In this document: positions 24,548 through 27,940 of the stretch, one piece after another
How positions within the stretch are numbered: the first letter of the stretch is position 1
Layout of the letters: the number at the start of each line of letters is the position of its first letter
Origin: Rhodovibrio salinarum DSM 9154
GTDB taxonomy: Bacteria > Pseudomonadota > Alphaproteobacteria > Kiloniellales > Rhodovibrionaceae
Assembly (NCBI RefSeq): GCF_000515255.1
Contig: NZ_KI911559.1
Location: 1,525,548-1,589,547, forward strand
DNA: 64,000 bases
Direction of reading: 5' to 3'
Translations under genes and position numbers: made by a program
Notes under the pieces: model-generated
The model's database searches: none
Seen by the model: the letters and a program-made list of their open reading frames with translations, nothing else
Told to the model about the DNA's origin: nothing

Positions 24548-24623
24548 GCCCAGGTAGCTCAGTTGGTAGAGCATGCGACTGAAAATCGCAGTGTCGGAGG
24601 TTCGAATCCTTCCCTGGGCACCA
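24548..24623 (+). tRNA. tRNA-Phe (anticodon GAA)
   Basis: A complete 76-base tRNA: acceptor GCCCAGG/CCTGGGC, D-arm GCTC..GAGC, anticodon stem TGCGA/TCGCA with loop CTGAAAA (anticodon GAA), T-arm GGAGG TTCGAAT CCTTC, and an encoded ACCA end. Its 3' 50 bases recur at 26647-26696, marking it as an integration target. Confidence 0.98.
24574..24623 (+). repeat. attL-like copy: 3' half of tRNA-Phe
   Basis: Fifty bases from the anticodon stem to CCA, repeated at 26647-26696 with one mismatch (G at 24593, A at 26666). This is the arrangement left when an element integrates into a tRNA 3' end and restores the gene. Confidence 0.85.
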
Positions 24624-24671
24624 CTTTTTCTGCGGGTTTCAGCGTTTTCCGGCTTAAATCAGTGGCACTTC

Positions 24672-24986
24672 GGGTAACACGTCGGGTAACAAGCGTTACC
24701 CAGGATTAGCCTATGCGACTTCCGCGCGCCGACGAAATTGACCAGGACACCCCAGCGCACGAACTCCATTTCGTGCGGTACAGCGGCTCGTCAGACGCAG
24801 CACAACTGGCAAAAGCGGAAGCCGAGCTACAGCGGCGCCAACAATCGCACGATGCGGAGATAAGCCGTCGGCAAGAGCGCGCTGCTTGGGCGGCTGCTAT
24901 AGCTGCTGGCCTATCCGCGCTCGCCACCATCGGCTTGGTAATCGTTTCGGCCATACGTTTATAAGCGTTACCCAAGACCGTTACCC
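24672..24986. repeat. Five GGGTAAC/GTTACCC copies flanking a small gene
   Basis: GGGTAAC occurs at 24672-24678 and 24684-24690, GTTACCC at 24695-24701, 24967-24973 and 24980-24986. The second and third form a perfect dyad GGGTAAC-AAGC-GTTACCC. The 12-mer AAGCGTTACCCA is exactly repeated at 24691-24702 and 24963-24974, on either side of the 83-residue gene. They look like binding sites for one protein. Confidence 0.7.
24713..24964 (+). CDS. Small C-terminally anchored protein of the tRNA-Phe element
   Basis: An 83-residue protein. A soluble N-terminal half precedes a charged helical stretch likely to coil (AAQLAKAEAELQRRQQSHDAEISRRQERA), then one transmembrane helix at about 59-81 ends the protein (WAAAIAAGLSALATIGLVIVSA). 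It resembles many small phage or island membrane proteins, but no family is recognised. No strong ribosome-binding site is seen. It is bracketed by GTTACCC repeats on both sides. Confidence 0.5.
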   Translation: MRLPRADEIDQDTPAHELHFVRYSGSSDAAQLAKAEAELQRRQQSHDAEISRRQERAAWAAAIAAGLSALATIGLVIVSAIRL

Positions 24987-24989
24987 GAT

Positions 24990-25229
24990 ATGACACCCGA
25001 CCAACGCCTGCGCCTCGACTATCCCCACGTCGCCGATCTGCCGGAGCGGCCGGGCGGCTGGGGCCACGACTACGACCGCGTACACGAATGGCTCTGTGAG
25101 CGCCTAGGAGGGCCACTCAGCGGGCGTTGGTATCTGCTTGGGCTAACGTGTGCCTACTTCGCCAGCGAGGTGGACTGTGCGGCGTTCTGTAAGGCTTGGG
25201 TAGCTACAAATAATCCGGTGTATGAGTAG
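24990..25229 (+). CDS. Small hypothetical protein of the tRNA-Phe element
   Basis: A 79-residue soluble protein, rich in Trp, Tyr and Cys (RPGGWGHDYDRVHEWLCERLGGPL, GRWYLLGLTCAYFASEVDCAAFCKAWVATN). Base composition is near the host's, unlike the next gene. It starts four bases after a GTTACCC copy and has no obvious ribosome-binding site, so it could be leaderless or spurious. Function unknown. Confidence 0.45.
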   Translation: MTPDQRLRLDYPHVADLPERPGGWGHDYDRVHEWLCERLGGPLSGRWYLLGLTCAYFASEVDCAAFCKAWVATNNPVYE

Positions 25230-25297
25230 ATTCGCCGTTGCAACCAACGCGCGCACACCCGTAACGTGACGCGTCATAGATAGACTTCGGAGCAATA

Positions 25298-26329
25298 ATG
25301 TTGCGAGAAGAATCCATTCGACTGGCATGGCAAAGTTTGAAATATCCGCTCTTGGGCTTTGCAAACCTAGTAGCTCTTACTGTCGGAGCTGTTGGTGGCG
25401 TTGCTGGTGTCCTTCCGCTCTTTAGTGCCTCACAAGCCATCAACGAAATTGTTCAATCTGCGGCGTTGGCAATCATTGCGATCGCAGCATTGGGGGCCTT
25501 CGGTGTACGTGAAGTTACATTTTTGAAGAGAAGGAGGGTCGCCAATACCGTAAATGAACAGCGCGCTGCATCCGAAACTTTGAGAGACCTGAGCACTTAT
25601 CTTGATAATGTGCTAACTGACCACCATGAAGGGCGTTCGCTCTCATATCGAGAACAAGACTGGGCTGTTGAAGAATTTTGTGGATTACTCGACTATTATT
25701 CTCGGATGTTCTCAACAATTACCTCAACTCGGTGCCGGGCGACAATTAAGCTGATTTTTGTCGAGAATCATGAACTCTACGTTTACGCGCTTGCGCGGGA
25801 TAAAATCTCGTCTCACGAAATGAGCACTCGTGATGAACGACGATTGGAATTAAGGCATGATCGTTTGGAAGATAATGAAGATTTCAAAAAACTGTTCCTG
25901 CCGGATTTTGCTGACTCTGGATTTTACTTAAACAACTATCTGCCATATATGAACTCTTACGAGTCATCTAGTTTAACGTTTTGGCAAGAAATTGAGGGCG
26001 ACAATTCAGAGTGGCCATTGCCCTACAGAAGCACCGTCGTATGGCCAATACGGCAAGATCAACGACGTTCTATTGGCGAAGACGAGTCGCTTTGTATTGG
26101 ATTTTTAGCGGTAGATAGTGACTCTACAGGCGTTTTTGACCAAAGATGGACGGTACCTATTGGAAAAACACTGGCAAATTCATTATATCACGTGTTATTG
26201 TTATACAATGAGTTGACGCTGGCTACGCAGCCCTTAGTATCAAACCCGTCAAACGGGGAGGTGCCCGATCATGGACAAGAGTGCCAAGAGCAGTCCGCTC
26301 CGGAGGGCGAAAGCTCGGAGTGTGGGTAG
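25298..26329 (+). CDS. Two-TM protein with GAF-like C-terminal domain
   Basis: A 343-residue protein, strongly AT-rich relative to its surroundings. Two transmembrane helices lie near 22-43 and 53-72, then a basic, helical linker (KRRRVANTVNEQRAASETLRD). From about 125 to 315 the sequence has the texture of a GAF-type sensor: a strand KLIFVENHELYVYAL, then STVVWPIRQ, CIGFLAVDSDSTGVFDQRW and a closing helix IGKTLANSLYHVLLLYNEL. No catalytic motif is seen. Such membrane-anchored sensors would detect a small molecule or stress at the membrane (inference). The 3' end overlaps the next gene by 59 bases, suggesting coupled expression. Not a known named family to me. Confidence 0.75.
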   Translation: MLREESIRLAWQSLKYPLLGFANLVALTVGAVGGVAGVLPLFSASQAINEIVQSAALAIIAIAALGAFGVREVTFLKRRRVANTVNEQRAASETLRDLSTYLDNVLTDHHEGRSLSYREQDWAVEEFCGLLDYYSRMFSTITSTRCRATIKLIFVENHELYVYALARDKISSHEMSTRDERRLELRHDRLEDNEDFKKLFLPDFADSGFYLNNYLPYMNSYESSSLTFWQEIEGDNSEWPLPYRSTVVWPIRQDQRRSIGEDESLCIGFLAVDSDSTGVFDQRWTVPIGKTLANSLYHVLLLYNELTLATQPLVSNPSNGEVPDHGQECQEQSAPEGESSECG

Positions 26330-26492
26330 GTCAGTCGGGCTTCGAGCTGAGCACGTCGACAAAAACAACCGCGTTGAAGTTAAAGTTTCTAATGGTGAGT
26401 ATGCGGGTGAGCGGTTCAAGGTACTCGCTACACCTCCCACGGCCGCATACTTTAAGGAGCGTTCGCGGAAGGGCAAGAAAGAAAAAGCGTAG
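26271..26492 (+). CDS. Small basic protein overlapping the GAF-like gene
   Basis: A 73-residue, lysine/arginine-rich protein (MDKSAKSSPLRRAKARSVG at the start, FKERSRKGKKEKA at the end) with a central beta-like stretch RVEVKVSNGEYAGERFKVLAT. It begins inside the 3' end of the 343-residue gene in another frame, with an excellent GGGGAGGTG ribosome-binding site nine bases before the ATG, which argues it is translated. It probably works with the upstream protein; nucleic-acid binding is possible from charge alone. No family recognised. Confidence 0.6.
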   Translation: MDKSAKSSPLRRAKARSVGRSVGLRAEHVDKNNRVEVKVSNGEYAGERFKVLATPPTAAYFKERSRKGKKEKA

Positions 26493-26495
26493 TGT

Positions 26496-26526
26496 CGCCC
26501 CGCCGACGCGGAACGCCGACGGGGCA
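26496..26526 (+). terminator. Possible hairpin ending the element's operon
   Basis: GCCCCGCCGACG and CGCCGACGGGGC pair with two imperfect positions around CGGAA, just after the small basic gene. No U-tract follows. Confidence 0.35.
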
Positions 26527-26646
26527 AGCATGGTGCGGGCGTGCCTTACTCGGCGGCCTGCTGTTGAGGGGCAAAGCCTCCAAGCTGCTCAATTTCGGCA
26601 AGCGCGCGGTACTCTAGCTTGTCGGCCGGCGTGGTCGGTTCGTTAC

Positions 26647-26696
26647 TGCGACTGAAAATCGCAGTATCGGAGGTTCGAATCCTTCCCTGGGCACCA
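26647..26696 (+). repeat. attR-like copy of the tRNA-Phe 3' end
   Basis: Fifty bases matching 24574-24623 except one base. There is no acceptor 5' strand or D-arm upstream, so this is not a tRNA gene. It marks the distal boundary of the inserted element. Confidence 0.85.
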
Positions 26697-26808
26697 TTCA
26701 GCCGGTTTTTCAAGCGTCGGGCAGAACGACCTTCCCCCTCACATCGCTGACTTGAAGCCCACGCCTTGGCATAAAGCAGCCGCTCGTGCGCGATGGGGCG
26801 AACGGCTA

Positions 26809-27856
26809 GAGCATCGGACCCGCTCATCGAATCAGGGATTCCCTTCGGCGCTGCTGTGTGATTCACCGTCGTAGGAGGTGAATCATGAGCGGTGCGCATT
26901 CCAAGGACCTGCGCGAGCGGGTGGTGCAGTACGTCGAGGCGGGTGGCAGCAAGCGGGCGGCTGCCCGGCACTTTCGGATCAGCCCGAGTTCGGCGGTCAA
27001 GCTGGTAAAACGCTGGTCGCAGACTGGTCGGATTGCGCCGGATGCGCGAGGACGTCCGGGCGGTGGTGGCAAGCTGGCCGGCCAGTTCGACTATCTGCGG
27101 GCGTGTCTGGCCGAGCGGCCAGACCTGACGATGCCCGAGCTCGCGGACAAGCTGGCGCGCGAACGCGGCGTGTCGGTCGCGCCCGCATCTGTGTCCCGCT
27201 TCCTGTGCCGCAACGGCATCACTTACAAAAAAAGGCGCTGACGGCCGCCGAGCAGCGCCGCCCGGACGTGGCCGCCGCGCGGCGCGTCTGGACCGGGCTG
27301 CGCCAAGCCCGGATGCGCGCGCAGCCCAGGCGCCTGGTGTTCGTCGACGAGACCGCGACCTCGACCAAGCTGACCCGCCTGCGCGGCCGGGCGCCGCGGG
27401 GCACGCGGGTCGACGCCAAGGCGCCGGCCGGGCGCTGGGCGACCCAAACCTTTATCGCCGGCCTACGCTGCGACGGCCTGACAGCGCCTTGGGTGATCGA
27501 CGGGCCGCTCAACCGCGAACGCTTCGAAGCCTACGTCGAGCACCAGCTCGCCCCGACACTGCGCCCGGGCGACGTCGTCATCCTGGACAACCTGTCCGCC
27601 CACGACAGCGCTCACGCCAGAGCGCTCCTCGCCGAGCGCGGCGCTTGGTTCCTGTTCCTGCCGAAATACTCGCCGGACCTAAACCCAATCGAACTGGCGT
27701 TCTCCAAGCTCAAGGCACATCTCCGGGCCGCCGAGGCGCGCACCTACGACGCCCTCTGGCGACGCACTGGCGACATCTGCAACCTGTTCCAGCCAGAGGA
27801 ATGCTGGAATTTCTTCCGCCACGCAGGCTATGTGCACGAATAAAAGTCTGATGCTC
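26809..27856. mobile_element. IS630-family insertion sequence with TA target duplication
   Basis: Terminal inverted repeats GAGCATCGGAC (left) and GTCTGATGCTC (right, one mismatch) end exactly at TA dinucleotides on both sides (26807-26808 and 27857-27858), the hallmark target duplication of IS630/Tc1-mariner elements. The 1,048-bp element encodes a single transposase in two overlapping frames. It lies about 110 bp outside the attR-like repeat, so it is a separate insertion. Intact ends and frames suggest it is recent and possibly active. Confidence 0.88.
26885..27843 (+). CDS. IS630 family transposase, made by programmed -1 frameshift
   Basis: Frame A (26885-27241) encodes 118 residues with a helix-turn-helix domain (KRAAARHFRISPSSAVKLVKRW) and ends TYKKRR. 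Frame B continues to 27843 in the -1 frame with the DDE catalytic core: VFVDET, VILDNLSAHDS and LPKYSPDLNPIELAFSKLK. The switch site is a run of seven A (27227-27233) read as A-AAA-AAG, as known for IS630 members. GGAGG precedes the ATG. The product cuts and pastes the element at TA sites. Confidence 0.88.
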
Positions 27857-27940
27857 TAGATGATGCCTGCTCAGAATTGCTTTACACGCGCGGGTTTCTG
27901 TAGCTGGCTCACGGGAAAGCATCTATCCGGTGGCATATCC

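Follow-up and report, generated by a model that had tools for sequence, protein, structure and literature searches.

Target gene and direct repeat

The stretch of DNA analysed here (the window) comprises 64,000 nucleotides, positions 1525548-1589547, of the genome of Rhodovibrio salinarum DSM 9154, which is a single contig of 4,176,524 bases with an estimated completeness of 99%. It contains a 2.1-kb element at a tRNA-Phe gene, bounded by two attachment (att) cores. The tRNA-Phe (GAA), which is the integration target, occupies 24548-24623 on the forward strand and is the one tRNA-Phe called by ARAGORN in the window. The attL core (24574-24623, forward) is the 3′ two thirds of this gene, from exactly the start of the anticodon stem to the CCA. 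The same unit recurs as direct repeat D1 at 26647-26696 (forward), with a spacing of 2,073 and an identity of 49/50, where it forms the attR core. An earlier note, made from the sequence alone, had described a 50-base repeat of the tRNA-Phe end with one mismatch 2,073 bp downstream, and its coordinates proved exact.

The downstream copy reaches 26.4 bits with Rfam, below the gathering cut-off of 29, and is therefore regarded as a displaced tRNA-Phe 3′ fragment, not a gene. An identity of 49/50 lies well outside anything that chance would give. In the surrounding 8-kb region, 19 further families of direct repeats are listed, with identities of 70-89% across 18-39 nt. The 2.1-kb segment is single-copy in the host genome, and these two are the only high-identity tRNA-Phe 3′ copies among the matches listed; the remaining matches are tRNA genes that are 77-81% identical.

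The segment is also distinct in composition. The guanine-plus-cytosine (GC) content of the interior is 0.526, falling to 0.463 in the longest gene (ORF3, below), against 0.67 for the window. At codon position 3 the GC content of this gene is 0.44, compared with 0.84-0.87 in the three flanking genes measured that do not belong to an insertion sequence (IS). The interior had been called partly very AT-rich, which holds relative to the host but not in absolute terms.

Gene content of the interior

Four plausible open reading frames (ORFs) of 83, 79, 343 and 73 amino acids (aa), all on the forward strand, fill the interior. As the earlier note had it, these are small or mid-sized genes in about 2 kb with no integrase, and the PF00589 search of the host genome gave no match inside the element. 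None of the four had a Pfam or NCBIfam match above cut-off; the best PHROG match had an E-value of 0.089 and no PADLOC match was listed up to E 5. No integration, transfer, replication or packaging family was recognised among them, and a role in phage defence or competition, suggested in the earlier note, is at most hypothetical for these genes.

ORF1 (24713-24964) encodes 83 aa with one C-terminal transmembrane (TM)-like helix and starts 11 nt after a GTTACCC site. Its best NCBIfam match (E 0.0035) scores 17.8 bits against a cut-off of 45. A tblastn comparison of the four ORFs with the comparison loci gathered, which for ORF1 were the only loci covered, gave a single weak match, to ORF1 (E 0.062). 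ORF2 (24990-25229, 79 aa) was found in one of 385 genomes, that of the host itself, with no homologue in the phage, plasmid and viral collections. ORF4 (26271-26492, 73 aa) overlaps the end of ORF3 by 59 bases and has no homologue in viral contigs, plasmids or phages. No other locus with the four ORFs was met.

The main cargo gene is ORF3 (25298-26329), a low-GC accessory gene for a protein of 343 aa with two TM-like helices and a conserved C-terminal region. Plasmids and phages yielded no homologue, and neither did contigs of genomes and viruses, for which the searches started from exact short peptides and so cover close relatives only. It is absent from the other 60 genomes of the order and from the other 384 genomes of the class sample. 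The same genes at this site without the repeat, named beforehand as an outcome that would speak against integration, were not seen for ORF3 in those 60 genomes.

One of 397 other genomes in a phylum sample (G768) encodes a homologue of ORF3, and a profile of the two sequences found matches in 5 of 248 relatives of G768, itself included. Four of these are near full-length and share 30 invariant columns with ORF3; the fifth is a fragment. By crude hydropathy, two TM-like helices are present in ORF3 and two homologues, and one helix in the other two. In three of the four homologues the GC content is low, at 0.39-0.44 within stretches that average 0.53-0.54, and the neighbouring genes look host-like by eye, and the homologue in G945 lies approximately 3.4 kb from an integrase gene adjoining a tRNA-Arg. 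The family is rare, patchy and low in GC, which is the pattern of mobile accessory cargo. With three members standing as single genes and a fourth in the vicinity of an integrase and tRNA-Arg, it represents a candidate accessory function. The stretch beside the tRNA-Arg (L198, G945:C69, 1-7807) encodes a 338-aa integrase, the ORF3 homologue and a 524-aa helicase-like protein; judged by eye, the last may be part of a relaxase.

The C-terminal motif of ORF3 looks GAF-like, but a GAF-type assignment was rejected as no GAF match in Pfam was obtained for this region or for any of the five family members. Matches to SLATT_6 (E 0.089) and SieB (E 0.069), each in one of the five members, are not significant. 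Of two sequence searches of the PDB, one returned nothing and the other E-values of 0.27 and worse. The AlphaFold model of ORF3 alone is poor (mean pLDDT 40.5).

A comparable interval is found in G028 (L040, G028:C54, 24-3940), where 3.8 kb separate a tRNA-Phe from a 47-nt copy of its 3′ end. The only convincing long ORFs encode a 900-aa TIR-nSTAND1-FGE protein and a 185-aa protein, and no integrase was seen. The former has a partial PADLOC match, best over the TIR region (E 9e-10). By the analogy of such company alone, a defence role for the cargo of the Rhodovibrio element is only suggested.

Left attachment site

Behind the left core lies a set of putative P′ arm sites (24672-24701, forward). 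This consists of GGGTAAC at +49 and +61 from the tRNA end, followed by an inverted GTTACCC at 24695; like distances are found in loci L055-L059, L061, L051 and L052. The pattern TGGGCACCA, followed by 38-58 nt and a GGGTAAC doublet, was used to scan contigs of 84,980 species and gave seven loci: five tRNA-Phe genes, one tRNA-Phe 3′ half and one unrelated sequence. In the six of tRNA-Phe type (L055-L059 and L061) the start of the doublet falls at +47 to +50 and its two sites are spaced by 12 nt, while the seventh (L060) has no tRNA and a doublet at +57. Four metagenome bins account for five of the six, and a complete chromosome for the sixth. The groups named in their record titles are alphaproteobacterial. 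In L061, a tRNA-Phe 3′ half is directly followed by the P′ arm, as in a tandem array.

Since the +49/+61 doublet matches the distances of +47-50 and +59-62 in the six other loci, the left end reads, on its sequence, as a genuine attL. The anticodon loop is a known crossover subsite (PMC4383910). The site-specific integration proposed in the earlier note is well supported, as arm sites stand behind the left copy at a distance known from other elements, and an integration footprint at tRNA-Phe is near certain. The second copy could instead be a tRNA pseudogene of separate origin or have arisen by accidental duplication in the host, since tRNA fragments arise by other duplications too. This was rejected as scarcely credible on the 49/50 identity, the exact start at the anticodon stem, the foreign composition between the copies and the distance of the arm sites.

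A second GGGTAAC doublet, in inverted orientation (24967-24986, reverse strand), stands 3 nt ahead of the ORF2 start. It resembles the arm preceding integrase genes in L053/L054 and L063, and its orientation is that found ahead of the integrase genes in L053 and L054. The window contains seven GGGTAAC sites against 2.6 expected (at least seven in 2 of 100 shuffles), and five of the seven fall within 315 bp in the element. The host genome has three doublets, of which two are in the element and one is beside a tRNA-Arg; a crude estimate assuming independence gives 0.024 for the genome.

As ORF1 starts 11 nt after a GTTACCC and ORF2 3 nt after a GTTACCC doublet at the position of an integrase start, the arm sites may have become operators of the cargo. 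The integrase of an incoming tRNA-Phe element would then bind them and switch the cargo, namely the two small ORFs and the protein with two TM-like helices, making the element a tiny resident sensor of competitors. There is a precedent in KplE1, where the integrase promoter overlapping attL is reported to be repressed by IntS and the directionality factor TorI (PMC2951348). Such a role is considered very improbable.

Arm sites and integrases in other genomes

Arms of the GGGTAAC type occur in viral contigs and cellular genomes alike. In two IMG/VR viral contigs the pattern scan placed a doublet at +48/+60 behind a tRNA-Thr. At the other end, both encode a tyrosine integrase with an Arm-DNA-bind_3 domain, the ATG start of which lies directly 3′ of such a doublet. 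With G443, described next, a like doublet precedes an integrase of this kind in three intact or part-seen elements. In G443, a tRNA-Phe carries the same type of attL (L055) and an Arm-DNA-bind_3 integrase (L063) is found on a different contig. The integrase arm there consists of one exact GGGTAAC and one GGGTCAC, at distances of 150 and 139 bp from a copy of the tRNA-Phe 3′ end.

Nearly the same distances occur in an element with another motif. G037, of the same order as the host, contains a 17.4-kb tRNA-Phe element with an integrase and a different arm motif at +48/+59 and -150/-139. In this element (L039, G037:C54, 56-17572) AGGTACC doublets lie at both ends; by eye, several of its large ORFs resemble methyltransferase, McrB-like and primase-like genes. 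A third motif, AGGCAAC, is present twice beside the integrase start in G029.

A GTTACCC doublet followed by an ATG occurs in 6 of 385 class genomes, the host included, and the reversed pattern used as a control gave none among the rows listed. In four of the five non-host genomes the pattern lies within approximately 100 bp of a tRNA. As a finder of integrases it was rejected: by a hidden Markov model (HMM) of five seeds, 4 of 113 matches in viral and class loci start an integrase. Among these four are the two viral contigs described above, one of which is a seed of the HMM. Most of the remaining matches look like simple repeats or the starts of short ORFs. One stretch (L185, 1380-1660, G070:C21) has a partial tRNA-Thr, judged by eye, and a full tRNA-Thr around a short segment with little beyond the arm doublet, and is perhaps a minimal scar.

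Comparison with relatives

The flank and tRNA were used as a query against 58 genomes including the host, and matches were obtained in 57, some of them not tRNA-Phe itself. Among the matches listed, partial ones restricted to the tRNA-Phe 3′ half occur in five of the 58 (the host, G028, G029, G033 and G037); the copies in G037 and G029 adjoin integrases. G001 and G002 are of the same family as the host, and the 76-nt tRNA-Phe of G001 is identical. Neither G001 nor G002 has a second tRNA-Phe copy among the matches listed, nor a doublet within 400 bp. Upstream, both retain RNase G, YacG and tRNA-Phe in this order. The window has an S1C protease after YacG, and so does G006, where tRNA-Phe lies 2.7 kb further on. 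No GGGTAAC doublet was found at any of 28 tRNA-Phe loci of order relatives, reading up to 400 bp; a 29th (L032) ends at the tRNA.

Right attachment site

In integrase-bearing elements the integrase-side (P) arm lies some 140-150 bp inside the core, beside the integrase start. This arrangement was not found inside the attR core of the present element. The corresponding interval (26493-26646) contains no GGGTAAC within one mismatch, and the same is true of all the sequence between 25205 and the right core. Both att cores and the attL arm are thus present and the attR arm was not found; going by sequence, the right end does not look like a good attR. A direct repeat, CGCCGACG, at 26501 and 26514 stands by eye in the expected position of a right arm; its motif is a different one, perhaps part of a hairpin. 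The reading of 26549-26644 (reverse strand) as a decayed integrase was rejected, since phage and plasmid searches up to E 5 gave no match. A gene across the circular junction was likewise discarded, as just one ORF of at least 40 aa, of 43 aa, spans it.

The four elements seen at both ends (G037, the two viral contigs and, on two contigs, G443) each have an arm motif common to the ends, whereas the ends of the present element differ. A deletion may have joined the left end of one tRNA-Phe element to the right end of another in a tandem array. The 3′ half in L061, with its P′ arm directly behind, would fit such an event. The second element, a third core copy and any intermediate are all absent. 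Matched arms are also not universal at tRNA-Phe, as the G028 interval has no shared arm longer than nine bases. A fusion of this kind is possible but doubtful, and it overlaps with the rearranged remnant favoured below.

Recombinases elsewhere in the host genome

The PF00589 search of the host genome recovered four proteins, none in or near the element. None of the four has an Arm-DNA-bind_3 domain, and genome-wide searches for PF13356 and for serine and other recombinases were not made. From their context, two look like XerC and XerD, a third has an IS91-like transposase as its neighbour, and the fourth is a DUF6538 protein of 679 aa. The match of the last to a tyrosine recombinase is weak (G000:C1:2220151-2220582; L038, L080).

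These results bear on the idea of a satellite mobilised in trans, raised in the earlier note. The 2-kb unit would then keep all the sites that it needs, and a helper phage or island using tRNA-Phe would supply the integrase for its excision, packaging and integration. The authentic P′ arm and near-identical cores would suit such a unit, as would the tRNA-Phe 3′ copies beside integrases in the same order (G037, G029) and the second integrase-less-looking interval in G028. It is opposed by the lack of a GGGTAAC arm at the right end and of an Arm-DNA-bind_3 recombinase among the four found, by ORFs 2-4 being unmatched in the phage, plasmid and viral collections, by a best PHROG E-value of 0.089, and by no second locus with the ORF set having been met. 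Mobilisation in trans is accordingly held to be unlikely.

Origin of the element

The element is probably a rearranged remnant that is not autonomous and functions in the manner of a cis-mobilizable element (CIME). A larger integrative element (a prophage, satellite or mobile island) would have entered the tRNA-Phe by means of a tyrosine recombinase recognising GGGTAAC doublets. The crossover may have taken place in the anticodon loop, with the element's own copy restoring the 3′ half of the tRNA. Later deletion and rearrangement would have removed an integrase formerly inside and displaced the integrase-side arm, whether by deletion and inversion or by fusion in a tandem array. What is left would be 2 kb of cargo, with a good attL on one side and, on the other, an attR that has the core but no recognisable arm. 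At present it would be immobile alone, and would possibly be moved only if a compatible element integrated beside it.

Several observations weigh against a remnant of this kind. Plain decay would not usually leave so short an interior with all four ORFs open and no visible break in any of them. With a single base of difference between the cores, the integration may be recent. The second doublet stands exactly ahead of a start codon, as before integrase genes, and deletion alone does not explain this. No correspondence was established between the sequence downstream of attR and that behind tRNA-Phe in relatives; no same-genus genome turned up in the searches and no strict empty site was seen. 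Of the five genomes with this attL type, four contain ten Arm-DNA-bind_3 loci in all and the fifth has none. Just one of the ten lies at a tRNA-Phe 3′ copy with GGGTAAC arms, so it is G443 and the two viral contigs that link this attL to the integrase. The other nine are without a tRNA-Phe 3′ copy, and L070 has a 21-base match only.

Relation to known systems

CIMEs are defined by the loss of integration and transfer genes with retention of attL and attR (PMC5704250). The present element likewise has flanking att cores in a tRNA gene and no recognised integration or transfer genes. It differs in that its right att has no recognisable arm and its parent may have been a phage or satellite instead of a conjugative element; accretion, known for CIMEs, was not seen here. 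Among the genomic islands at ssrA in Dehalococcoides, 15 without integration modules have been suggested to be cis-mobilizable elements (PMC3146451). These are also integrase-less cargo at an RNA gene, though the target gene is another one, and adjacent or tandem islands are described there and none lies at this element. The tRNA islands found by Islander have ends marked by a regenerated tRNA and a displaced fragment, with an anticodon-loop subsite, as here; the method requires an integrase gene between the copies (PMC4383910), which this element does not have.

The absence of an integrase of its own also sets it apart from an autonomous tRNA genomic island or integrative and mobilizable element. 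Phage satellites such as phage-inducible chromosomal islands (PICI), P4-like elements and PICI-like elements (PLE) are small, lie at tRNA genes and carry accessory cargo, with their own integrase and genes for replication, regulation or packaging. The present element resembles them in size, site and cargo, and differs in having no recognised integrase, replication or packaging family. CIMEs and integrase-less islands have already been described; the placement of the arm sites in this element is unusual. Island finders that depend on an integrase overlook tRNA islands without one. With the geometry of the arm sites, in which a doublet lies about 48 bases behind a tRNA, the site side can be detected even where the enzyme is lacking, and a true attL is more easily separated from a chance repeat.

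Neighbouring features

The third doublet of the host genome lies outside the window, near 698869 of G000:C1 (L048, 1501-1669), where a GGGTAAC doublet and a single inverted site follow a tRNA-Arg. No repeated tRNA-Arg 3′ end was found in the approximately 59 kb behind it, and for this reason the arm site is probably a solo remnant of another integration.

To the right of attR by about 190 bp, and outside the element, is an IS630-type transposase split over two frames (26885-27843, forward), identified by HTH_Tnp_IS630 and the ORF calls; the match falls in the first frame and the second has none. The IS630-type element spans 26806-27860 of the window, with ends judged by eye to be CTAGAGCATC and GATGCTCTAG.

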